Source: Deferribacterales bacterium Deferri_01 (GTDB taxonomy: Bacteria > Chrysiogenota > Deferribacteres > Deferribacterales > Geovibrionaceae). From it: a stretch of DNA of 64,000 bases. Within the stretch, counting starts at the first letter, position 1. Every line of letters begins with the position of its first letter. The position numbers and the translations under genes are program-made. The notes beneath the pieces were generated by a model. That model was not told the origin of the DNA. It searched no databases and worked only from the letters and a program-made list of their open reading frames with translations. Where the stretch lies: NCBI GenBank assembly GCA_001603805.1, contig LUZY01000013.1, positions 474,723-538,722 of the forward strand, given 5' to 3'. Below, piece after piece: positions 11,364 through 52,720 of this stretch.

Positions 11364-11466
11364 TTATTTAATAATCCAAAAAACTACATCCTGTATTTTT
11401 TGTATACACGCTCGCGGCAGGATAAACCTGCCTTCGCTACGCACGGCGACGTCCCATCCATGGGAC
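11364..11466 (+). repeat. Three-hairpin element, copy 1 (103-bp tandem unit)
   Basis: First full unit of a tandem array, ending 17 bases upstream of the BI-1 gene. H1 is 11377-11402 (caaaaaa with ttttttg, centre atcct), H2 is 11416-11432 (ggcagg, loop ataaa, cctgcc), H3 is 11451-11466 (gtccca, loop tcca, tgggac). The linkers acacgctcgc and ttcgctacgcacggcg match the family. Orientation is given as the strand on which the linker reads acacgctcgcg. Confidence 0.9.
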
Positions 11467-11569
11467 TTATTTAATAATCCAAAAAATTACATCCTGTATT
11501 TTTTGTATACACGCTCGCGGCAGGATAAACCTGCCTTCGCTACGCACGGCAACGTCCCATCCATGGGAC
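11467..11569 (+). repeat. Three-hairpin element, copy 2 (103-bp tandem unit)
   Basis: A near-perfect direct repeat of copy 1, exactly 103 bases later, differing at only a couple of positions. One difference changes the bulged base in H1. All three hairpins and both linkers are intact. The two units share the boundary ttatttaataatcc. Confidence 0.9.
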
Positions 11570-11655
11570 TTATTTAATAATCCAAAAAACTACATCCTAA
11601 GTTTAACTATACATACTCACACCGTGATAAACACGACTTCGCTACGCACGGCGGA
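11570..11655 (+). repeat. Three-hairpin element, copy 3 (degenerate)
   Basis: It begins with the same ttatttaataatccaaaaaa boundary and the H1 loop tacatcct, but the second half of the H1 stem is lost. H2 is weakened (cgtg, ataaa, cacg) and the linker cttcgctacgcacggcgg is still clear. H3 cannot be recognised. It looks like an older decayed unit at the distal end of the array. Between this copy and the MFS gene (11656-11804) I see only one hairpin and no gene. Confidence 0.75.
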
Positions 11656-11691
11656 AAAATTCTGCTAAACCATATATCAGAATATCCCAGA

Positions 11692-24485: not shown

Positions 24486-27400
24486 TTATTCTGTTTTTGC
24501 AGCTTCCTGTGCTTTCTGTTTTTCAAGATCGCTTTTCTTAACATCGTCAAGCGTTCTCTTTTCCTCAACAGTGATAAAGGCTTCTATTACATCGCCCTCT
24601 TTAAGGTCGTTGAATTTCTCCACACCAATACCGCATTCATAACCTGCCATAACTTCTTTGGCATCGTCCTGAAAGCGTTTGAGAGAGGAAATTTTGCCTT
24701 CGTAAACAACAATGGAGTTCCTGATAACACGAACGCCTGCTGTCCTTGAAACCTTTCCTTCCGTAACGTATGAACCGGCGATTTTGCCGATTTTCGGTAC
24801 GGAGAACACCTGTCTGACTTCTGCCTGACCGATGATCTGCTCTCTGAGGTTCGGGTCTATCATACCTTCAAGTGCCTGTTTAACATCATCCACAATCTGA
24901 TAGATTACGGAGTAAAGGTTGATGTCCACGCCCTCTTTCTCTGCTTTTTCTCTGGCTTTGGCATCCGGTCTTACGTTAAAGCCGAATATCAGACCGTTTG
25001 AAGCAGCGGTGAGGATAATATCGTTCTCGTTAATACCGCCCACACCAGAGTGGATTATATTAACCTTGATTTCTGTGCTGGTGAGCTTGTTGAGCGAGTT
25101 TTCAAGAGCAGCAAGTGAGCCCTGAACATCCGCCTTAAGAACTATATTAAGCTCTTTCAGCTCGCCTTCTTTAATTTTTGCAAAAAGATCAGTAAGAGAA
25201 ACTTTTGTTTTCTCCATAAGAGCTTTTTCGCGTTTATTGTCCGCTCTGAGTTCTGCCAGCTGTTTAGCTACCTTTTCATCAGGGGTGACGATAAATCTAT
25301 CGCCTGACTGAGGAACATCGGAAAAGCCCATAAGCTCCACAGGAATTGAAACTCCCGCTTCCTTAACAGACATTCCCTTATAGTTGAACATAGCCCTGAC
25401 CTTGCCGTATTCTGTTCCGCATACAAAGTAATCGCCTTTTTTGAGGCTTCCGTTTCTTATAAGAACTGTGGCAACCGGACCTTTCTGTTTGTCAAGTTTG
25501 GACTCAATAATAATACCTTCAGCAGGCTTGTTTGGGTTACCTTTAAGGTCAAGCATTTCTGCCTCAAGGAGAACTCTTTCAAGCAGAGTATCAATATTGA
25601 GGTTCTTTTTAGCTGAAATTTCCTGAAACTGATTATCCCCGCCCCATTCTTCAGAAATAATTCCGAGTTCGGAGAGCTGGCTTTTAACCATATCAGGGTT
25701 GGCATTTTCCTTATCTATCTTGTTGACTGCAACAACGATTTTAACGCCTGCCGCCTTTGAGTGGTCAATTGCTTCTTTTGTCTGGGGCATAACGCCGTCA
25801 TCCGCCGCAACCACCAGAATAACTATATCCGTAACCTGTGCGCCTCTTGCACGAAGAGTTGTGAACGCCTCGTGACCGGGGGTATCGAGGAATACGATCT
25901 TTCCGTGGTCGAGTTCGACTTCATATGCGCCGATATGCTGAGTAATGCCGCCTGCCTCTTTTTCTGCAACAGATGTTCTTCTGATTGCATCAAGGAGTGA
26001 TGTTTTACCATGGTCAACGTGACCCATAACCGTAACGATCGGAGGACGGGGAACGAGATCTTCCGGCTTGTCAGCAACAGTGGGGAGGAGATCCTCTTCT
26101 GTAACCACTTTTGTTTTGACATCTATGCCATATTCTGTAGCAAGAAGTGCAGCTGTATCCGCATCAACAGCCTGATTCATAGACGCCATAATGCCGAGGC
26201 TGAGAAGTTTTTTAACAAGCTCAGTCGCCTTAACCGCCATAAGTTTAGCAAGGTCGGAAACAATAATGTTTTCACCTATTTCAATGCTTGACGGACGCAC
26301 TATAACCTTAGGTTCAGTCTCCTGACGTCTTCTGCCTCGTTTGTCCATTCTGGGTCTTGAGGTCTGCGGTTTTTTCTTAACCGGTTCCTCTTCTACCTCT
26401 TCCTTTTCAACCGGAGCAGCAGCAGCCACGCTTGTATCAATTTCATGTTCAATAGTGAGTTCGTCAAAACCTTCAGCCACTGTTTTGTGGAAGCTTTTAG
26501 GTTTATCCGTCTTTTTGACCGGCTTCTTTTTAACTTCAGCCTTCTGAGGTTCAGGTTTATCTTTTATCTTCTTCTTGATCTCAAGTTTAATTTCATCTTT
26601 AGGGCTCATGCCGTTTGACTGGGCAGGTCTCTGCGGACGTCTGTCACCATACTGCGGTCTGTCGCCTCTGTCTTTATCCATAGGAGGACGTCTGTCGCCG
26701 TACTGAGGTCTGTCGCCCTGAGGACGTCTGTCACCGTACTGCGGTCTGTCACCCTGGGGACGCCTGTCACCGTACTGGGGTCTATCGCCCTGAGGACGTC
26801 TGTCACCGTACTGAGGTCTATCACCCTGAGGACGTCTGTCACCGTATTGGGGTCTATCACCCTGAGGACGTCTGTCACCCTGCGGTCTGTCGCCTCTGTC
26901 ATTGTTGTACTGAGGTCTGTCACCCTGAGGACGCCTGTCACCATACTGCGGTCTGTCGCCTCTGTCATTGTTATACTGGGGTCTGTCACCCTGAGGACGC
27001 CTGTCACCGTACTGAGGTCTCTCGCCTCTGTCATTGTTATACTGGGGTCTGTCACCCTGAGGACGCCTGTCACCCTGAGGTCTGTCGCCCCTGTCATTGT
27101 TATACTGGGGTCTGTCACCCTGAGGACGTCTGTCACCGTATTGAGGTCTGTCGCCTCTGTCGTTGTTGTACTGGGGTCTGTCGCCCTGAGGACGCCTGTC
27201 ACCCTGAGGTCTGTCGCCCCTGTCATTGTTATACTGGGGTCTGTCACCCTGAGGACGCCTGTCACCGTACTGAGGTCTGTCGCCTCTGTCATTGTTGTAC
27301 TGGGGTCTGTCGCCCTGAGGACGCCTGTCACCGTACTGAGGTCTCTCGCCCCTGTCATTGTTGTACTGACGGTCACCCTGAGGTCTGCGGTCGCCGTACT

Positions 27401-28049
27401 GAGGTCTGTCGTTTGAATGGGGCTTTGATGCAGGTTTTTCCTGTTCTTCGCCTCGCGTCTGCGAGTCTTTTTCCTGCTGAAGCATTTTTTCTCTCTCACC
27501 TTGTTGACGGCTTTCAGGCGCTTTCGGGGTTTCAGCCTGAGCAGAGCCGGCAGATATATTGTTCTGGGGTTTTTCAGCGGAAGCAGGAGTCTTTTCAGTG
27601 GTAACCGGGGTTTCCTTTTTCTCTGCTGAAACAGTCTGTTCCTTTGCCGCAGAAGCTGCTTCGACCGGTTTGGAAGCAGCGGGAGCAGTCTGCGGTGTTT
27701 CGGGAGCCGCTGGTGCTTTTACATCTGTTTCCTTAGTATACTGCTCCCTCTGTTCATCCACTTTACGGATGTTTTTCTCAAGGGCGCGTTTGCGGTTAAG
27801 CAATTCTTCACGGGATATTTTCTTAGGCTGCTGAGGATCTTCCTCTCCGCCTTTTATTTTCACTTCTCTTGCTCGGGGGTGTCTTTTGTGTCTTTCGAGG
27901 GCTTTTTGAAGCAGTTCCTGACGTTTGTTCAGTTTGGATTTTGCGGATTCATCGGAATCGCCTTCGGCTAAATCCATTCCCGTATTTTCAAGTTCGTCAT
28001 TTCTATTCAATTTTTTCCCCTCATCATTATTTTTAAAATCTGACATCAA
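24486..28049 (-). CDS. infB: Translation initiation factor IF-2 with expanded Arg/Gln-rich repeat region
   Basis: IF-2 is the GTPase that places fMet-tRNA on the 30S subunit and drives subunit joining. The 1187-residue protein is several hundred residues longer than usual. The excess is in the N-terminus: an acidic/Ala-rich part to about residue 205, then about 260 residues (roughly 210-470) made of repeated [12 protein letters not shown] and NNDRGDRPQ units. The IF2-N helical domain ([20 protein letters not shown]) comes near residue 600. The G domain carries GHVDHGKT at 676-683, DTPGHEAF and [11 protein letters not shown], and domains II-IV follow intact ([17 protein letters not shown]). 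The repeats are in frame and end before any conserved domain. The gene follows the YlxR/L7Ae gene by one base. Confidence 0.97.
26637..27416 (-). repeat. In-frame coding repeats in infB (about 36- and 66-bp units)
   Basis: The DNA encoding the N-terminal region of IF-2 consists of short near-identical units. One codes for [12 protein letters not shown] (12 codons) and one for that plus [10 protein letters not shown] (22 codons); a variant lacks the Tyr codon. GDRRP occurs about 15 times. Units differ mainly at silent positions. The region is likely to slip or recombine, and the repeats hold open long spurious frames on the other strand. Confidence 0.9.
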
Positions 28050-30627: not shown

Positions 30628-31635
30628 TCAGATTCTGAAAAGCGAGCAGTTTTTATCCATAATTCTCTCAATAAGACACTCCGCCACGGAAGAATCCGGA
30701 CAGCCATGTCCGCCTAAATGTATGGAAGGTTTGATTCTTTCACCATGAAAATCGCTCCCCGCTGTTACAAGCAGTCCTTTTGCAGCTGCAAACCTGAGAT
30801 AATCAGTCCTTTGCTGCGCATTATGATAGGAAGAGTAAACCTCTATCCCTTCTACACCGTCAATAAACAGTTCATCCATTTTTTTCTGAGGATAAAGCCC
30901 AGGATGAGCAACAGCAAGCACTGATTTACCGGCGAGCGCTGCGACCGTTTTGCGGTAGTCCAGCAGACTGACGTCAACATACGCCCTCCCGCCTTTAAAG
31001 AAATAGTCAAAATAGAATTTTGTATAAGGGGAATCAGACTTTTCACCCTTAAGATAAGGATGAAGCTCTGCCCTGTTTTTCTCATTCTCCGCCAGTACCT
31101 TAAGGAATGTAACGCCGGAAGGAGTCTTGCCGTCAGCAACCTCTATAACACGGTCAAAATCTACTTCAAATCCGAGACTTCTAAGCTTATCTGTACGCAG
31201 TTTCGCCTGAGAAAGCCTGTTTGCGGCAAATTCTTCAAGCAGAGCTGTAAGGTCAGCATCATCAGGATCTATGCCGTATGGGATGATGTGTATCTCTGTA
31301 TCCTTATGATATGTGGAAAGCTCAACAGCGGGAATATATGTCATGCTGCCGTCACCATACTTAAAGGAAAGCATTTCACGAACAGATGAAACAGTGTTGT
31401 GGTCGGTTATGGCAAAAAGGGAGTAGCTTCGTGAGCGCAGAACAGTATAAACATCAACAGGAGACAATACACCGTCGGAGCTGTGATTTGTATGAATATG
31501 CAGGTCGAATTGATTAATAGTTCCCAGACCGGCACATCCTGTCCGGCTGCTCACACGCTCACGGCAGGGTAAACCCGCCTTCGCTTCGCACGGCGCAGTT
31601 CCATCCTTGGAACTGTCAGTACCTGATTTATGCAT
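30628..31635 (-). CDS. PHP-domain phosphoesterase with repeat-derived N-terminus
   Basis: A 335-residue PHP protein (predicted metal-dependent phosphoesterase, TrpH/YciV-like). Metal-site motifs are DLHIHTNHSSDG from residue 44, FAITDHN, AVELST and TAGSDFHGE. TrpH-type enzymes hydrolyse nucleoside 3',5'-bisphosphate or short RNA 5' ends; the substrate here is unproven. PHP proteins normally start a few residues before the DLHxHT motif. Here residues about 7-40 (including DGTAPCEAKAGLPC) are translated from a copy of the three-hairpin element. The ATG has a good AAGGA site eight bases upstream, so the extension is plausibly made. A GTG within the element is an alternative start. Confidence 0.82.
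   Translation of the reverse strand: MHKSGTDSSKDGTAPCEAKAGLPCRERVSSRTGCAGLGTINQFDLHIHTNHSSDGVLSPVDVYTVLRSRSYSLFAITDHNTVSSVREMLSFKYGDGSMTYIPAVELSTYHKDTEIHIIPYGIDPDDADLTALLEEFAANRLSQAKLRTDKLRSLGFEVDFDRVIEVADGKTPSGVTFLKVLAENEKNRAELHPYLKGEKSDSPYTKFYFDYFFKGGRAYVDVSLLDYRKTVAALAGKSVLAVAHPGLYPQKKMDELFIDGVEGIEVYSSYHNAQQRTDYLRFAAAKGLLVTAGSDFHGERIKPSIHLGGHGCPDSSVAECLIERIMDKNCSLFRI
31510..31616 (+). repeat. Three-hairpin element, copy 4, inside the PHP gene
   Basis: H1 31525-31549 (cagaccgg/ccggctg with one bulge, loop cacatcctgt), linker acacgctcac, H2 31563-31579 (ggcaggg/cccgcc with a bulged a, loop taaa), linker cttcgcttcgcacggcg, H3 31596-31615 (cagttcca, tcct, tggaactg). It is read on the other strand as codons of the PHP protein without a stop. 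Confidence 0.88.
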
Positions 31636-31648
31636 ACTGCTTTTCCTT

Positions 31649-31756
31649 TTGATTAATAGTTCCCAGACCGGTACATCCTGTCCGGCTGCTCACACGCTCG
31701 CGGCGGGGCAAGCCCGCCTTCGCTTCGCACGGCGCAGTTCCATCCTTGGAACTGTC
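31649..31756 (+). repeat. Three-hairpin element, copy 5, upstream of the PHP gene
   Basis: A near duplicate of copy 4, 139 bases away, sharing the left boundary ttgattaatagttccc. H1 31664-31688, H2 31702-31718 (ggcggg, loop gcaag, cccgcc), H3 31735-31754 (cagttcca, tcct, tggaactg). The bulge in H2 of copy 4 is repaired here by a different base, supporting selection on pairing. The rest of the gap 31636-31870 holds the terminator of the autotransporter and no gene. Confidence 0.88.
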
Positions 31757-31808
31757 AGTAGCTTTCTCATTCATAGTCCGCAGACTTATACATCCCCTGA
31801 TTGTTCAG

Positions 31809-31870: not shown

Positions 31871-34800
31871 TCAAAACGCAACGCTGATTGACGCTTTGCC
31901 GTGATGCTCCGTAATATAATCACCGAAACTTCCGCCATATCCCACACTTAAATTAACTGCCTCTGTTATATTACATTTTAAGTCTGTACCTATGATAAAA
32001 CTGTCTTCATCCAAAGGAAGCCCCTTTGTTTCAAACCTGCTTCCTCCTGATACAAAACGGCTTCTTCTTTCCGGTTCATAACCTTCTGTAATACGCTGAT
32101 AAACAGCATGTGCGCCCAGACTGAAAATACCGGAGAAAGCCACATTTCCCCTGAACCCGAAAGATGCAGCAAACATGCTGTCGCTGTAATCGCTTACAGC
32201 CAGTGCCATATCACCTCCGGCTTCATTAAAGGAATCAGCTTCCGTATAAATATAAGAAGCGCCGATAAAAGGCATAATGTTTACTTTGCCAAGATCTACT
32301 TTTTTACCGACTTCTGCAAATGCCTGAAAAATTCTTGCTCTGTAGTCGCCGTCAAGGGTTTCGATGATCCCTCCTGCTTCTGCTGTTCTTTCAGTATCAA
32401 CATCTGAAAAACCCATCAGACCGCCTGCCCTGAACTCGGCAAAACCTGTATCATATGAACCGTACGCACCCAAATGGATTGTTTTTATATCGGCATCAGA
32501 ATTGCGCCCTTCTCTGATTTCAACTTTTCCTGATTCAAACCCCAGAGCAATGCCAAAACGTCCTGAAGGCATCGGCTGAAAATCTACACCGCCGATCAGA
32601 ATCTGACCGTCTGCATCATATTTTGCCGCATTGCCATCAGAATCTGTATCTGCTGTAAATCCGAAAAGTTTGACCCATGAGCTGTTTTCTGCAGTTATTT
32701 TCACATCAGTTCTTTCAATAAGATGGGCAGTCAGCGAATCTCTTATAAGCCTGCTGTTATTCAATACTGCCGAAATGGCAGTTGCATGTATTTCACCGTT
32801 CATACTGTCAAAAGCACTGCGTGCGGAAGCTGCACTCATTCCTAAAATCTCTTTGTACACTTCGCTGTCCGTGCCAAGGGCTGCCAATGCGCTCGAAATA
32901 TTTTTCTGGTTATATGTTCTGGTTACAGATTCAAAGCTTGCATCGTTTCTGTAAACATCAAGTATAACTGAGTTATTTTTATATTTCAGAAAAGGATCAA
33001 GAAACGCTAGGTTGCTTGAAATCCCCTGGAATTCGCCTGTTAAACTTCCTGCTTCCAGTATTGTAAATGCGGTAAAATTGCCCCAGTCACCATTTTCTGC
33101 CAAAACAGAAACATGCCCGCCAGAGAGTTCTGCATTTCCCGCAATTATTGCAAGATCACTTGTGCCATCTGAATTTACCTCAACTTCATAAACAGAGCCA
33201 TTTTCAAAGATCACACTGTTCATTGTAATTACGCCTATTGAATTGCCGGGAGAAAGAGTACCTGAGAGACTGATGGCGTTATTAACTGTTCCGCTGCCTG
33301 CTATTTCAGCATTTTCGCTTATACTGATTAAACCCGCCGAGATTTCGCCAGCAGCAACGCCTTTTGCATTGCCCAGAGAATCATATCCGTTGGAAACTTC
33401 GTTTTCTCTGTATAAGTAAAGTGTTCCTTCCGTTATTTGCAGAGTGCCCTCACCAAAGTCATTGACTCCGCCAAGTTTCCAGACCCCTGAACCCGTTTTA
33501 ACAACGTCAACTGCTGTTAAATCAGCAGCAGAAACTGGATCACGCATATCGACCACAGAATTATCTTCAGTATTAACAGTTAAGACAGAGTCATGAGTTA
33601 CAAAGAAAATTGAATTTGCCTCGCCTTCGGCAAGATTTCCCGAAATCAGCGTAACGCCGTCATCCTGTGTATTAAATGTAATGTTTCTTCCTGCATAAAC
33701 TGCACCTCCGGGACCTGAGGCCGTATTGTCTGTCAGTGATATATTATTCCCGAAAACAACATTACCTGTGGCTGCGTAAACTGCTCCACCCGAACCGTAA
33801 GTAGCGGAATTCCCTGAAATCACCGCATCAGCCCCGAACTCAAGATTACCGCTGACTAAATAAACCGCTCCGCCTATATAGCCTGCGGTATTGCCCTTAA
33901 GTTCCGCACTGTTCCCGAAAACAGCACCGTTGTAAACAAGAAGCGCACCCCCGTAAGCGGCAGTATTATCAGTAAGTATTGCACCGTTTCCAAAAGTTAC
34001 CGTATTTTCAGAATAAACACCGCCACCGTAAGCATAAGCGCTGTTTCCGCTTATTTCGGCATCATCGCTGAAATTAACAGTTCCTTCTGAGTAAACTGCG
34101 CCGCCGTTACCTCCGGTTGAAACGTTTCCGGAAAGGGTTGTACCATCGCCAAAGACTGCGCTTTCAAACGAATATATAGCTCCGGTGGTATAAGCGGTAT
34201 TATTTGTAATCTCCGCACTTTCGCCAAAAATAACATTAGTCGCAGCAACAGCACCGCCAACACCGGAAGCAATATTGCCGGACAAAAGTGCATTATCACC
34301 AAATGAAGCTGTCTGCCCTGAAGAGACAGCTCCGCCGTGACCATTTTCCGCCTCATTTCCTGTAAGAACAGCATTGTTTCCGAAGGTGATGCTCCCTATG
34401 CCTGAATAAACCGCTCCGCCTCCATGTCCTGCTGTGTTATCCATTATAACTGCATTATCACCAAACTCTGCATTATTATAAGTATTTACAGCCCCGCCAC
34501 TTCCTGTTGAAGAAGTATTTCCTGTTAATGAGGCATTATCTGAAAAAATAATATCATTAGCTGCCCAGAGTGCGCCGCCTGAAGTATTCGCAACATTGCC
34601 TGAAATCGATGCGCCATTACCAAAGGTGATGTTACCCGTGCCTGATTCAGCTGCTCCGCCCTGCCCGTATGCGGCTATATTATCAGTCAGTTCTGCATTA
34701 TCACCAAATGTAATGCTTCCTACGGCTATAACAGCGCCGCCTTCTCCTCCGGTGTTGTTATCAAGAGTTGCACTGTCGCCAAATTCAACATCTCCGCCTG

Positions 34801-35392
34801 CAAAAATTCCTCCTCCGAGGTTTGCTGTCATATTTCCAGAAAAATGCGCTCCATCGCCAAGATACACATTTCCGGTATTGGAAAAGATAGCTCCGCCGCT
34901 GCCATTTAAAGATGAATTGCCTGAAAATACTGCAGAGTTATTAAAAGTTACATCCCCTTCTGCATAGACAGCACCGCCGAACATATTTTCGGTGTTAGAT
35001 GAAAAGCTTATTGTTCCTAAACCCGTAAAACTTATTTTCCCTGATGTGTTAAAAGCACTGGATAAACGATTCGCCACAGAAAAAGTTATGCCTTCCGCCA
35101 CACTGAAGACTGCGTGGGTGTCAACCGCACCGGTAAAATTTCCATTCATAACATCAGCACTGTCAATAACAAAGCGTCCTGCCTGCGTGCTTAATACCGG
35201 AGAGGTAAAATTCAGATCAGATAAAAGTATCCCCGGATTATTGCTTAACAAAATCTCATCATTTTCCATTATATCCAGAGCAAATACATTAAAGGTTAAA
35301 AAAATAACAAATAAAGAAACAGTTAATAATTTGAAACAGACTATAGAAATCAAGAAGAAAAGTCTTTTACAGCAGATATTAACGAACAACAT
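31871..35392 (-). CDS. Autotransporter with Pmp-like FxxN/GGA repeats
   Basis: A 1173-residue secreted protein. Residues 1-38 are a long hydrophobic signal sequence. From about residue 110 to 620 come some twenty repeats with the pattern FGDNAxLTGNTA then GGAVY, i.e. the FxxN and GGA(I/V/L) pairs that define Chlamydia-type polymorphic outer-membrane protein repeats and predict a beta-helix passenger. A junction region follows (GTLSPGNSIGVITMNSVIFE, as in autotransporter-associated repeats), then a C-terminal beta-barrel (about 905-1173) ending in Phe, expected for BAM-inserted porins. A GGAGGG site is just before the ATG. It is probably a surface adhesin; the function is inferred from architecture only. 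Confidence 0.9.
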   Translation of the reverse strand: MLFVNICCKRLFFLISIVCFKLLTVSLFVIFLTFNVFALDIMENDEILLSNNPGILLSDLNFTSPVLSTQAGRFVIDSADVMNGNFTGAVDTHAVFSVAEGITFSVANRLSSAFNTSGKISFTGLGTISFSSNTENMFGGAVYAEGDVTFNNSAVFSGNSSLNGSGGAIFSNTGNVYLGDGAHFSGNMTANLGGGIFAGGDVEFGDSATLDNNTGGEGGAVIAVGSITFGDNAELTDNIAAYGQGGAAESGTGNITFGNGASISGNVANTSGGALWAANDIIFSDNASLTGNTSSTGSGGAVNTYNNAEFGDNAVIMDNTAGHGGGAVYSGIGSITFGNNAVLTGNEAENGHGGAVSSGQTASFGDNALLSGNIASGVGGAVAATNVIFGESAEITNNTAYTTGAIYSFESAVFGDGTTLSGNVSTGGNGGAVYSEGTVNFSDDAEISGNSAYAYGGGVYSENTVTFGNGAILTDNTAAYGGALLVYNGAVFGNSAELKGNTAGYIGGAVYLVSGNLEFGADAVISGNSATYGSGGAVYAATGNVVFGNNISLTDNTASGPGGAVYAGRNITFNTQDDGVTLISGNLAEGEANSIFFVTHDSVLTVNTEDNSVVDMRDPVSAADLTAVDVVKTGSGVWKLGGVNDFGEGTLQITEGTLYLYRENEVSNGYDSLGNAKGVAAGEISAGLISISENAEIAGSGTVNNAISLSGTLSPGNSIGVITMNSVIFENGSVYEVEVNSDGTSDLAIIAGNAELSGGHVSVLAENGDWGNFTAFTILEAGSLTGEFQGISSNLAFLDPFLKYKNNSVILDVYRNDASFESVTRTYNQKNISSALAALGTDSEVYKEILGMSAASARSAFDSMNGEIHATAISAVLNNSRLIRDSLTAHLIERTDVKITAENSSWVKLFGFTADTDSDGNAAKYDADGQILIGGVDFQPMPSGRFGIALGFESGKVEIREGRNSDADIKTIHLGAYGSYDTGFAEFRAGGLMGFSDVDTERTAEAGGIIETLDGDYRARIFQAFAEVGKKVDLGKVNIMPFIGASYIYTEADSFNEAGGDMALAVSDYSDSMFAASFGFRGNVAFSGIFSLGAHAVYQRITEGYEPERRSRFVSGGSRFETKGLPLDEDSFIIGTDLKCNITEAVNLSVGYGGSFGDYITEHHGKASISVAF

Positions 35393-35497: not shown

Positions 35498-35528
35498 CAA
35501 AAAAGGCGGGAAGCAAACGCTCCCCGCC
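35498..35528 (-). terminator. Rho-independent terminator of iorB
   Basis: A strong stem (ggcggg/cccgcc extended by agc/gct, loop aaac) followed on the minus strand by six or more T. It lies about 27 bases beyond the distal duplicated iorB end rather than beside the present iorB stop, as if the element had been inserted between the gene and its terminator. Confidence 0.85.
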
Positions 35529-35554
35529 CTGAAAAGACTGGATAAAATAGTTAA

Positions 35555-35599
35555 TATCTAGAACTGATACCCGGCGTTGAATGCAGCCAGATTAACATC
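35555..35599 (-). repeat. Distal copy of the iorB 3' end (direct repeat A)
   Basis: On the minus strand this reads DVNLAAFNAGYQF and a TAG stop, the exact C-terminus of IorB, but it is disconnected from the gene by an element. It differs from the copy on the gene at five third-codon positions out of 14 codons, all silent. Confidence 0.9.
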
Positions 35600-35602
35600 T
35601 CA

Positions 35603-35704
35603 ACTAATATCGCCGTATCTACATCCTGTGATACGGCTGAAAACGCTCGCGCCCTGCAAAGCAGGGCTTCGCTTCGCACGGCGCAGTTCCATCCATGGAA
35701 CTGC
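35603..35704 (+). repeat. Three-hairpin element, copy 6, between two iorB ends
   Basis: The best-paired copy. H1 35612-35637 (gccgtatc, loop tacatcctgt, gatacggc), linker aaacgctcgc, H2 35651-35667 (gccctgc, aaa, gcagggc), linker ttcgcttcgcacggcg, H3 35683-35704 (gcagttcc, loop atccat, ggaactgc). Stems are perfect and unlike those of copies 1-5 in H1 and H2. Confidence 0.92.
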
Positions 35705-35707
35705 AAC

Positions 35708-35752
35708 TATCTAGAACTGGTAGCCTGCGTTGAACGCTGCCAGATTAACATC
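35708..35752 (-). repeat. Proximal copy of the iorB 3' end (direct repeat B)
   Basis: The 3' end of the present iorB gene, 45 bases matched to the distal copy at 40 positions; all five differences fall on silent third bases. Together with the distal copy it brackets element copy 6. Confidence 0.9.
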
Positions 35753-36283
35753 AATGGTCTTAGGCGGAACTTTTTTGGAGATTACAGAGCGCCAGATTTC
35801 CGCATCAAAGGGAAGAAGAGCTGCAAGCTTGCCGAGCATAACCATACCCGCAACCTTTGAGTTGCCTAAGCCTGTGGCTGTTGTCATGGCGTCTATCTCA
35901 AAAACTTCTTTGAAAGCAATTTTGGTTTCTTCTGTCTGTTCAGAAGGATATGTTTCCTGACCGCCGGCAACAGAAGGAGGGTAGATCCGGTACTTATTTA
36001 CTACGAGAGATGTTTCCTTGCCTGCATATTCGGGGTAGCGGAGAAACTCCATATTTTCAAAAGAGATAACAATATTCGCCTCACCTACAGGGATAACAGG
36101 TGAAAGCACCTTGTCCCCTATACGTACATGGGAAACAACACTCCCGCCCCTCTGCGCCATGCCGTGAATTTCGCTTTTTTTAACATCTGCATCTCCGGCA
36201 AGAGCCACATCGCAGACTATATCGCTGGAGAGAACAGTTCCCTGCCCTCCCACACCTATCATGAGTATATTAATATCTTTCAT
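35711..36283 (-). CDS. iorB: Indolepyruvate:ferredoxin oxidoreductase, beta subunit
   Basis: IorB is the gamma-like subunit of the IorAB complex, which oxidises aryl pyruvates (from Trp, Phe, Tyr transamination) to aryl-acetyl-CoA while reducing ferredoxin. The 190-residue protein has the POR-gamma opening IGVGGQGTVLSSDIVCDVAL, then KKSEIHGMAQRGGSVVSHVR and ATGLGNSKVAGMVMLG. It is downstream of iorA with 115 bases between, filled by an element copy. Its last 14 codons are repeated beyond a second element copy. Confidence 0.93.
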   Translation of the reverse strand: MKDINILMIGVGGQGTVLSSDIVCDVALAGDADVKKSEIHGMAQRGGSVVSHVRIGDKVLSPVIPVGEANIVISFENMEFLRYPEYAGKETSLVVNKYRIYPPSVAGGQETYPSEQTEETKIAFKEVFEIDAMTTATGLGNSKVAGMVMLGKLAALLPFDAEIWRSVISKKVPPKTIDVNLAAFNAGYQF

Positions 36284-51350: not shown

Positions 51351-51378
51351 ACAAATCCAGTTTATGCCCCATTTTATC
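51351..51378 (-). repeat. Distal copy of the ribBA 3' end (direct repeat A)
   Basis: A 28-base exact match to the gene end. On the minus strand it continues the frame KKKDKMGHKLDL with a TAA stop at 51349-51351, repeating the C-terminus of RibBA beyond the element. The neighbouring Lys codon is AAA here and AAG in the gene, and the stop is TAA against TGA. Confidence 0.88.
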
Positions 51379-51394
51379 TTTCTTTTTATAGTTC

Positions 51395-51486
51395 GAGAAA
51401 ACTACTTCCTGTGTTTTCTCTCACATGCTCGCGCCCTGCAAAGCAGGGCTTCGCTTCGCACGGCGCAATTCCTTCCATGGAATTGT
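51395..51486 (+). repeat. Three-hairpin element, copy 10, between two ribBA ends
   Basis: H1 51395-51420 (gagaaaac, loop tacttcctgt, gttttctc), linker cacatgctcgc, H2 51433-51449 (gccctgc, aaa, gcagggc), linker ttcgcttcgcacggcg, H3 51466-51485 (caattcc, ttccat, ggaattg). A further short hairpin tgctg/cagca follows before the gene. Stem sequences of H1 and H3 are unlike those of other copies. Confidence 0.9.
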
Positions 51487-51505
51487 GTTTGCTGAAAGCG
51501 CAGCA

Positions 51506-52720
51506 TCACAAATCCAGTTTATGCCCCATTTTATCCTTTTTAGTAAACAGATATTTTGCGTTTTCGGGGTTGAGGTCACTGTGTGTGCCGACCCTTTCCA
51601 CAAGCTCAAGCCCATAGCCAGACATGCAGCGCATCTTTTTAGGGTTATTTGTAATAAGGCGTATCTGGTTAATGCCAAGATGTCTTAATATCTGCGCACC
51701 GAAACCATAGTCACGCATATCTTCATTAAAACCCAGATGAATATTCGCTTCTATGGTGTCAAGCCCTTCATCCTGAAGATGGTAGGCATTGATTTTATTA
51801 AGTATGCCTATTCCTCTTCCTTCCTGAAACAGATAAAGTACAACGCCTCTTCCTTCTGCTTCCACCAGATCCATAGCCTCGTGGAGCTGTGAGCGGCAGT
51901 CGCACCTTCTTGAACCGAAAACATCGCCGGTGAGGCACTGCGAATGCACACGTACAAGCACGGGCTCGTCAGTGGTAACATCGCCTTTCATAAGAACAAC
52001 AGCTTCCTGACCGTCCACAACGCTTCTGAAGCCGAGTATATTAAATTCGCCGGCACTGGTGGGAAGCCTTGCGACATTAGTTTCTTCGATGAGCTTTTCA
52101 TGCTCCATTCTGTATGAAATAAGATCCGCTATAGTAACTATCTTCAGCCCGTGGATTCCTGCAAATTCATCAAGCTGGGGCATTCTTGCCATAGTGCCGT
52201 CATCGTTCATTATCTCGCAGATAACTCCGGCAGGTTTAAGCCCGGCGGACTTCATAAGATCCACAGAACCTTCTGTCTGCCCTGCACGCACAAGCACTCC
52301 GCCCTGCCTTGCACGCAGAGGGAAAACATGACCGGGTCTGGCGAGGTCTTTTGATGTTGATTTATCATCAATTGCAACCTTAACTGTGTGCGCTCTGTCA
52401 AAAGCAGAAATACCGGTGGTGACACCCTCTTTCGCCTCAATAGACACAGTAAAGGCTGTTCCGAAGCGGGCTGTGTTACCGTCTCCGCCAACCATGAGGT
52501 CAAGCCCCAGTCTGTCGCAGTTTTCTTCTGTCATTGCGAGGCAGATAAGACCACGGCCGTATTTAGCCATAAAGTTAATGGCTTCCGGAGTCACATACTC
52601 AGCGGCGCAAACAAGGTCGCCCTCATTTTCTCTGTCCTCATCATCCACAAGGATAATCATCTTACCCTGTTTAAGATCCTCAATAGCTGCGTCTATCGTA
52701 GCAATATTTTTATATTTCAT
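51506..52720 (-). CDS. ribBA: Bifunctional 3,4-dihydroxy-2-butanone-4-phosphate synthase / GTP cyclohydrolase II
   Basis: RibBA provides both branch precursors of riboflavin. The 404-residue protein has an N-terminal RibB domain (ILVDDEDRENEGDLVCAAEY and GRPGHVFPLRA-like DLARPGHVFPLRARQGGVL) and a C-terminal RibA domain with zinc cysteines in SQCLTGDVFGSRRCDC and VVLYLFQEGRGIGILNKINA, plus GLELVERV. After the last zinc cysteine the usual Gly is Arg (RCDCRSQL). The final codons, KDKMGHKLDL and stop, are repeated beyond element copy 10. It is between ribE and ribH. Confidence 0.95.
   Translation of the reverse strand: MKYKNIATIDAAIEDLKQGKMIILVDDEDRENEGDLVCAAEYVTPEAINFMAKYGRGLICLAMTEENCDRLGLDLMVGGDGNTARFGTAFTVSIEAKEGVTTGISAFDRAHTVKVAIDDKSTSKDLARPGHVFPLRARQGGVLVRAGQTEGSVDLMKSAGLKPAGVICEIMNDDGTMARMPQLDEFAGIHGLKIVTIADLISYRMEHEKLIEETNVARLPTSAGEFNILGFRSVVDGQEAVVLMKGDVTTDEPVLVRVHSQCLTGDVFGSRRCDCRSQLHEAMDLVEAEGRGVVLYLFQEGRGIGILNKINAYHLQDEGLDTIEANIHLGFNEDMRDYGFGAQILRHLGINQIRLITNNPKKMRCMSGYGLELVERVGTHSDLNPENAKYLFTKKDKMGHKLDL
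51508..51535 (-). repeat. Proximal copy of the ribBA 3' end (direct repeat B)
   Basis: The end of the present ribBA gene; 28 bases identical to the distal copy, with the stop codon TGA at 51506-51508. The two copies flank element copy 10. Confidence 0.88.

Follow-up and report, generated by a model that had tools for sequence, protein, structure and literature searches.

In the 64,000-nucleotide stretch of Deferribacterales bacterium Deferri_01 analysed here (positions 474,723 to 538,722 of contig LUZY01000013.1; hereafter the window), a dispersed repeat of about 105 nt with three hairpins, which we term element E, separates two copies of the 3′ end of an iorB-like gene that differ only by silent substitutions. 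The best explanation as a whole for this layout, and for similar ones at other genes of the genus, is that E and the end of a donor gene were gained together through homologous exchange with the resident gene end, a reading that we consider probable. This suggests that E moves between related bacteria accompanied by a working gene end, so that its insertion is harmless. More tentatively, and with somewhat less than even confidence, E may be viewed as a small repeat whose transfer unit is the element plus the last codons of its host gene, with the gene end acting as a recombination address, each insertion rebuilding the gene and the paired ends recording exchanges between species. The usual view of small bacterial repeats is that a transposase spreads them and that they survive at sites where landing is harmless. 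Insertion of E would bring a functional replacement of the displaced gene end at more than 30 genes, including pheS, prfA, ilvN and proC (these names, and that of fabD below, are our own reading of the protein sequences). The silent differences between the paired ends would then be a built-in record of recombination between diverged lineages, and the route by which such repeats spread would thereby become testable from sequence alone.

The duplicated iorB end in the window

The iorB-like gene (190 aa; 35711-36283, minus strand, from the list of open reading frames) has a single close match per genome in the three members of the genus that were compared (G000, G001 and G002), and its last 13 codons and stop are present twice with an insert of 108 nt between them. 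The proximal, coding copy (35708-35752, minus strand) specifies DVNLAAFNAGYQF followed by TAG and is in frame with the gene, while the distal, displaced copy (35555-35599, minus strand) specifies the same peptide, DVNLAAFNAGYQF, and also ends in TAG. Independent repeat detection returned the same two segments as a 45-nt pair that is 89% identical. The copies differ at five bases (GCA/GCT, GCG/GCA, GCA/GCC, GGC/GGG and TAC/TAT), all of them in the third codon position and all silent, for which the chance at iorB alone is 0.001-0.01; the duplication described in an earlier note on this DNA, which had drawn attention to the locus, is thereby confirmed. The insert is E (35600-35707, plus strand), which here consists of the left end and hairpin A (about 35610-35637), a core with hairpin B (35644-35682), hairpin C (about 35685-35704) and a further 3-4 nt. 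Beyond the displaced copy, where the same note had placed a terminator, there is indeed a terminator-like stem-loop, G+C-rich and with a T run (about 35505-35529, minus strand), as read from the sequence rather than by a terminator scan.

The two iorB ends are as divergent as alleles of two species, as the five silent changes in 13 codons (0.38 per codon) compare with 45 silent changes in 115 codons (0.39 per codon) between the iorB bodies of G000 and G001. An in-frame TGA stands directly upstream of the displaced copy, the frame of which is thus closed. In G001 the same duplication is found with the same junction, and both copies carry that species' own codons, residue (M for V) and stop. Thus, the insertion at iorB is not recent and the copies have been re-homogenised since it occurred; from the shared junction the duplication is older than the split from G001. 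The interpretation offered in the earlier note is thus partly supported, with a correction as to the age of the insertion at iorB. In the comparison of related loci for an empty iorB site, which had been recommended as a check, G001 has the duplication, while in G002 the duplicated end is absent, yet E is at that place, leaving no clean empty site and no readable resident version. The identity of the resident end therefore rests on the other genes of the class.

Silent divergence between duplicated gene ends

About 290 of roughly 510 E copies were read with their surroundings in three species of the genus, one genome each (G001 being a 50-contig draft), with genes taken as open reading frames (ORFs), not annotations. 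Among the copies read, both flanks of E share a direct duplication, of 18-114 bp, at 75 places. On the hairpin C side, the flank often begins only a few bases from where a gene running into E has its stop codon; measured from the end of hairpin C, the distance to such stops peaks at -1 to +1 nt across all copies read. At these sites the duplication comprises the last 5-23 codons and the stop of the adjoining gene. Once frames that are translations of E had been removed, the class consisted of 33 genes with 46 displaced copies, and so the iorB locus is not the only place in these genomes where gene ends flank an element, a possibility that the earlier note had raised. The window itself holds a second case, at a RibA-like gene: its coding end (KKDKMGHKLDL; 51508-51541, minus strand, with the stop TGA at 51506-51508) is followed by E and about 21 nt of filler that precede the gene end (51385-51507, plus strand), and then by the displaced end (51351-51384, minus strand), which encodes the same peptide, has the stop TAA and shows two silent differences. 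At one locus of G002 (L111) it is the start of a gene, not the end, that is duplicated in this way, again with two silent differences.

Across the 33 genes, the coding and displaced ends display 44 silent and five non-silent unique base differences, 41 of the 49 being at the third codon position, plus one in-frame deletion of 3 bases; 21 of the 46 displaced copies are identical to the coding end. The silent share expected is 21-28% if the changes were unconstrained, or 35-44% if half of the silent changes had arisen in the coding copy, and the observed ratio departs from either expectation with P <= 2e-11, copies of one array not being independent of each other. It should be emphasized that one exclusion, made by inspection, is essential to this count: eight ORFs in six loci are translations of E inside E arrays, with nothing to mark them as genes, and with them included the raw count is 50:42. 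The count also omits two rows that contain no differences, namely L140 and the 298-aa frame of L176. The bias persists in copies whose frame is closed upstream, among them the displaced iorB copy, at 18 silent to two non-silent differences. Both versions have thus been coding for nearly all of the time over which they diverged. Given this silent bias and the species-level divergence of the iorB ends, the two copies have the appearance of alleles from separate lineages, both in coding use until recently, in keeping with the suggestion in the earlier note that one copy derived from a diverged allele or that both had at times been coding.

It might be supposed that transposition of E generates long target-site duplications of variable length, which then drift, the displaced copy simply being non-coding. 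The direct duplications at 75 places are consistent with such a process, as is the identity of 21 of the 46 displaced ends, which is what fresh duplications would show, and the junction inside the gene favours GA, the dinucleotide with which 20 of 35 displaced copies begin. Indeed, target-site duplication may well be the way in which new E loci begin. Drift, however, would yield 21-44% silent changes compared with the 90% observed (44 of 49), and on the opposite side the junctions are concentrated at the stop codon, unlike those of blind duplication. Target duplication followed by drift is thus refuted as the source of the differences by the 44:5 ratio, which supports the earlier view that the silent divergence is hard to explain by target duplication, and as an account of the class it is unlikely.

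Rather improbable, too, is the proposal that the likeness of the copies is maintained only by frequent gene conversion within the genome, the differences being ordinary mutations accumulated since the last conversion. The iorB copies are more alike within species than between them, as seen in the V/M residue and the stop codon, and in a gene at locus L135 silent variants have been swapped between the coding and displaced copies of G001 and G002; both observations are in line with conversion. Mutations that follow conversion should, however, be 35-44% silent rather than 90%, and the pairs exhibit either no differences or clusters of four to six, a pattern that resembles import. Gene conversion is therefore needed in addition to import but is insufficient alone.

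A further explanation of the bias, which we regard as quite improbable, is that the displaced end is itself translated, whether by read-through across E or by initiation within it, and is thus under selection at the protein level. In 15 of 30 cases the displaced frame stays open across E, compared with 13 of 60 for the other two frames, and E is read in frame in a PHP-like gene of G002. In contrast, closed-frame copies are equally biased (18:2), including the iorB copy of the window with its TGA directly before the copy, and therefore selection on a translated displaced copy is not needed. The excess of open frames, moreover, can arise where the AT-rich end of E (ATT ATA AAG ACA) meets GAN codons, and orthologues account for several of the cases. 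It is scarcely credible that the stray end was left behind by a paralogue, whether of iorB or of another gene of the class, after deletion of the DNA between the two copies: nothing was found in its favour, the tandem iorB paralogue that would have spoken for it is not seen (a single close iorB occurs in each of the three genomes), and the same layout recurs at more than 30 unrelated genes, always beside E.

Probable resident and incoming gene ends

To establish which of the two ends is resident, orthologous gene ends were compared across the three genomes. In the following, P denotes the end copy that adjoins the gene body and Q the displaced copy. Several genes (pheS, prfA, ilvN, fabD, proC and those at L120 and L152) have no E in one or two of the genomes. 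The last displaced copy of pheS in G002 leads into the next gene through the leader that the element-free relatives also have. The displaced copy of ilvN in G002 ends in TAA and continues into DNA that lies downstream of the gene in element-free G001, while the coding copy has TAG, then filler, then E. The L135 gene of G002 carries TAA and its own downstream DNA at the displaced copy; its coding copy ends in TGA-TTTCC-E, which the two other species share. In ilvN, the RibA-like gene and the L135 gene the stop codons differ between P and Q, and the resident downstream DNA follows the stop of Q. The proC gene of G001 agrees with G002, which bears E, in the stop-side codons of its coding copy, and with G000, which is free of E, in those of its displaced copy; at the first codon the pattern of matches is reversed, giving a reciprocal mosaic. 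The L152 and L120 genes agree with this mosaic at a few informative sites. A reciprocal mosaic of this kind is the pattern given by one crossover between the resident end and an incoming unit of end plus E. On the basis of the element-free orthologous sites, these comparisons point to the displaced copy as the resident end and to the end next to E as having arrived together with it.

These observed features, namely the duplications, the silent divergence, the element-free orthologous sites, the tandem arrays and the mosaics in a few genes, may be combined in the exchange model, in which we infer lateral exchange as the route and a single crossover as the event. The layout at gene 3′ ends would then read gene body, P with its stop, E, Q with its stop, and original downstream DNA. 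P and Q would mostly be the ends of two alleles that both coded until recently, Q and the DNA downstream of it representing the resident end and the stop-side part of P having entered from a related lineage along with E. A single homologous recombination event within the common gene end would suffice, joining the resident gene to donor DNA that contains end plus E. This donor DNA could be a tandem end-E array or a circle that had popped out of one; the common occurrence of such arrays was counted in favour of the model. Because a complete gene end would always be left before E, the insertion would be harmless and only silent allelic differences would be visible. Subsequently, further exchange, expansion and contraction of the end-E arrays, and conversion would homogenise the copies. 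The model addresses the spread of E between lineages, not its first arrival at a new gene.

Several points weigh against this interpretation. The mosaic comprises about seven informative sites in three genes, which were read after the model had been formed, and the L135 gene of G001 misfits at the stop side. The iorB, ATP synthase gamma and L135 genes share their junction between species, which indicates old insertions and requires later homogenisation. Each species is represented by one genome, donors were not observed, and the model leaves the excess of junctions at stop codons unexplained.

Element E, known repeats and neighbouring features

E begins with a left end of about TGTCTTTATAAT. 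Hairpin A has a loop around ACATCCTGT, hairpin B is bordered by the constant words CGCTCGCG and CTTCGCTNCGCACGGC, and hairpin C has a loop around CATCCATG. Although their sequences vary, the arms of hairpin B pair in 97% of cells (287 copies), compared with 56% when arms are shuffled among copies. No obvious terminal inverted repeats were seen among the copies read, although no search for a parent element by its ends was made, and no Rfam model matched at the gathering score anywhere in the window. At three or fewer mismatches there are 109 copies of E in G000, 123 in G001 and 282 in G002, and none in G003, which belongs to a sister genus; by this measure E appears confined to the genus, as far as tested. 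A scan of genome contigs for relatives returned family-level and more distant ones only.

The nearest parallel in effect is prophage e14 in the icd gene of Escherichia coli, where icd with and without the prophage differs by 12 single-nucleotide polymorphisms, 10 of them synonymous (PMC4759930). In e14, as in other integrative elements that use gene ends, the incoming element supplies a new 3′ end, the gene remains intact and the ends differ mostly silently; replacement of gene ends by a mostly silently recoded copy is likewise found here, at 44:5 over 33 genes. Elements of the e14 type, however, pair one element with one target and an integrase, whereas E, at about 105 nt, has no room for a gene and adjoins the ends of more than 30 genes. 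Indeed, E at iorB contains no integrase, there being only 108 nt between the copies. Among small repeats, Yersinia YPAL/RU-2 is about 168 bp long, has internal inverted repeats, lacks terminal TA, is not A+T-rich and is flanked by target duplications of 3-26 bp (PMC2229807). E resembles it in being small and not A+T-rich, with internal inverted repeats, without the usual termini or terminal TA and with target duplications of variable length, but the duplications at E span 18-114 bp, with junctions at stop codons and silently diverged copies. E also has the general attributes of miniature inverted-repeat transposable elements and YPAL-like repeats, being a non-coding repeat of <200 bp in many copies (109-282), with flanking duplications (75 places) and element-free sites.

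REP, BIME and REPIN sequences are palindromic repeats of high copy number that form tandem clusters, often at gene 3′ ends, and are mobilised by RAYT (Y1) transposases; REPs are 20-40 nt palindromes with a GTAG/CGTC-type tag. E is similar in its many copies, palindromes, clusters and position at gene 3′ ends, but differs in its unit of about 105 nt, its three hairpins and the gene ends duplicated along with it. No GTAG/CGTC-type tag was apparent by eye in the aligned copies. Mobilisation of the RAYT type was rejected, as no Y1 (IS200-like, PF01797) transposase was matched in G000, G001 or G002, while control genomes were matched. Retro-insertion was likewise rejected, since a reverse transcriptase (PF00078) is found only in G000, with none in G001 and G002; the domain lies in a 501-aa open frame (L356; G000:C3:114810-115451). 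Rickettsia palindromic elements are known from in-frame insertion within proteins. They are palindromic, genus-specific and 105-146 bp in length (PMC2229807). E shares their size, palindromes and genus restriction, and the PHP-like gene of G002 provides at least one in-frame case, whereas many E copies lie directly after stop codons. We found no description in the literature of E, nor of gene ends duplicated around a small repeat.

Many E copies form tandem arrays, each repeat unit consisting of E together with some of the local flank. In the window, the opening codons of the PHP-like gene are also found, as copies, in two tandem E units (31510-31775, plus strand), and three tandem units of flank plus E, the last divergent, occupy 11364-11656 (plus strand). 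In G001 and G002 a second repeat, GTCATTGCGAACCCTGAAAGGGTGAAGCAATCTC, frequently adjoins E, and in arrays the two are duplicated together (L062, L166, L199, L205 and others). The PHP-like gene is the ancestral neighbour of iorB, judging from gene order in G002 and G003, where the two are adjacent; in the window a 1173-aa autotransporter-like ORF (31871-35392) lies between them. The listed start of the PHP-like ORF of the window (30628-31635) falls within E, and the annotated N-terminus is thus doubtful. Just past the iorB stop of G002 (L033), the PHP-like gene shares a single open frame with the two E copies that separate it from iorB, and there E may be read as an N-terminal extension of the PHP-like protein. 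The likely ATG of this extended frame is inside the iorB end, and in G003 iorB and the PHP-like gene also appear to overlap. Finally, the window contains a dense array of coding-like tandem repeats of 18-66 nt (26604-27410) that is unrelated to E.
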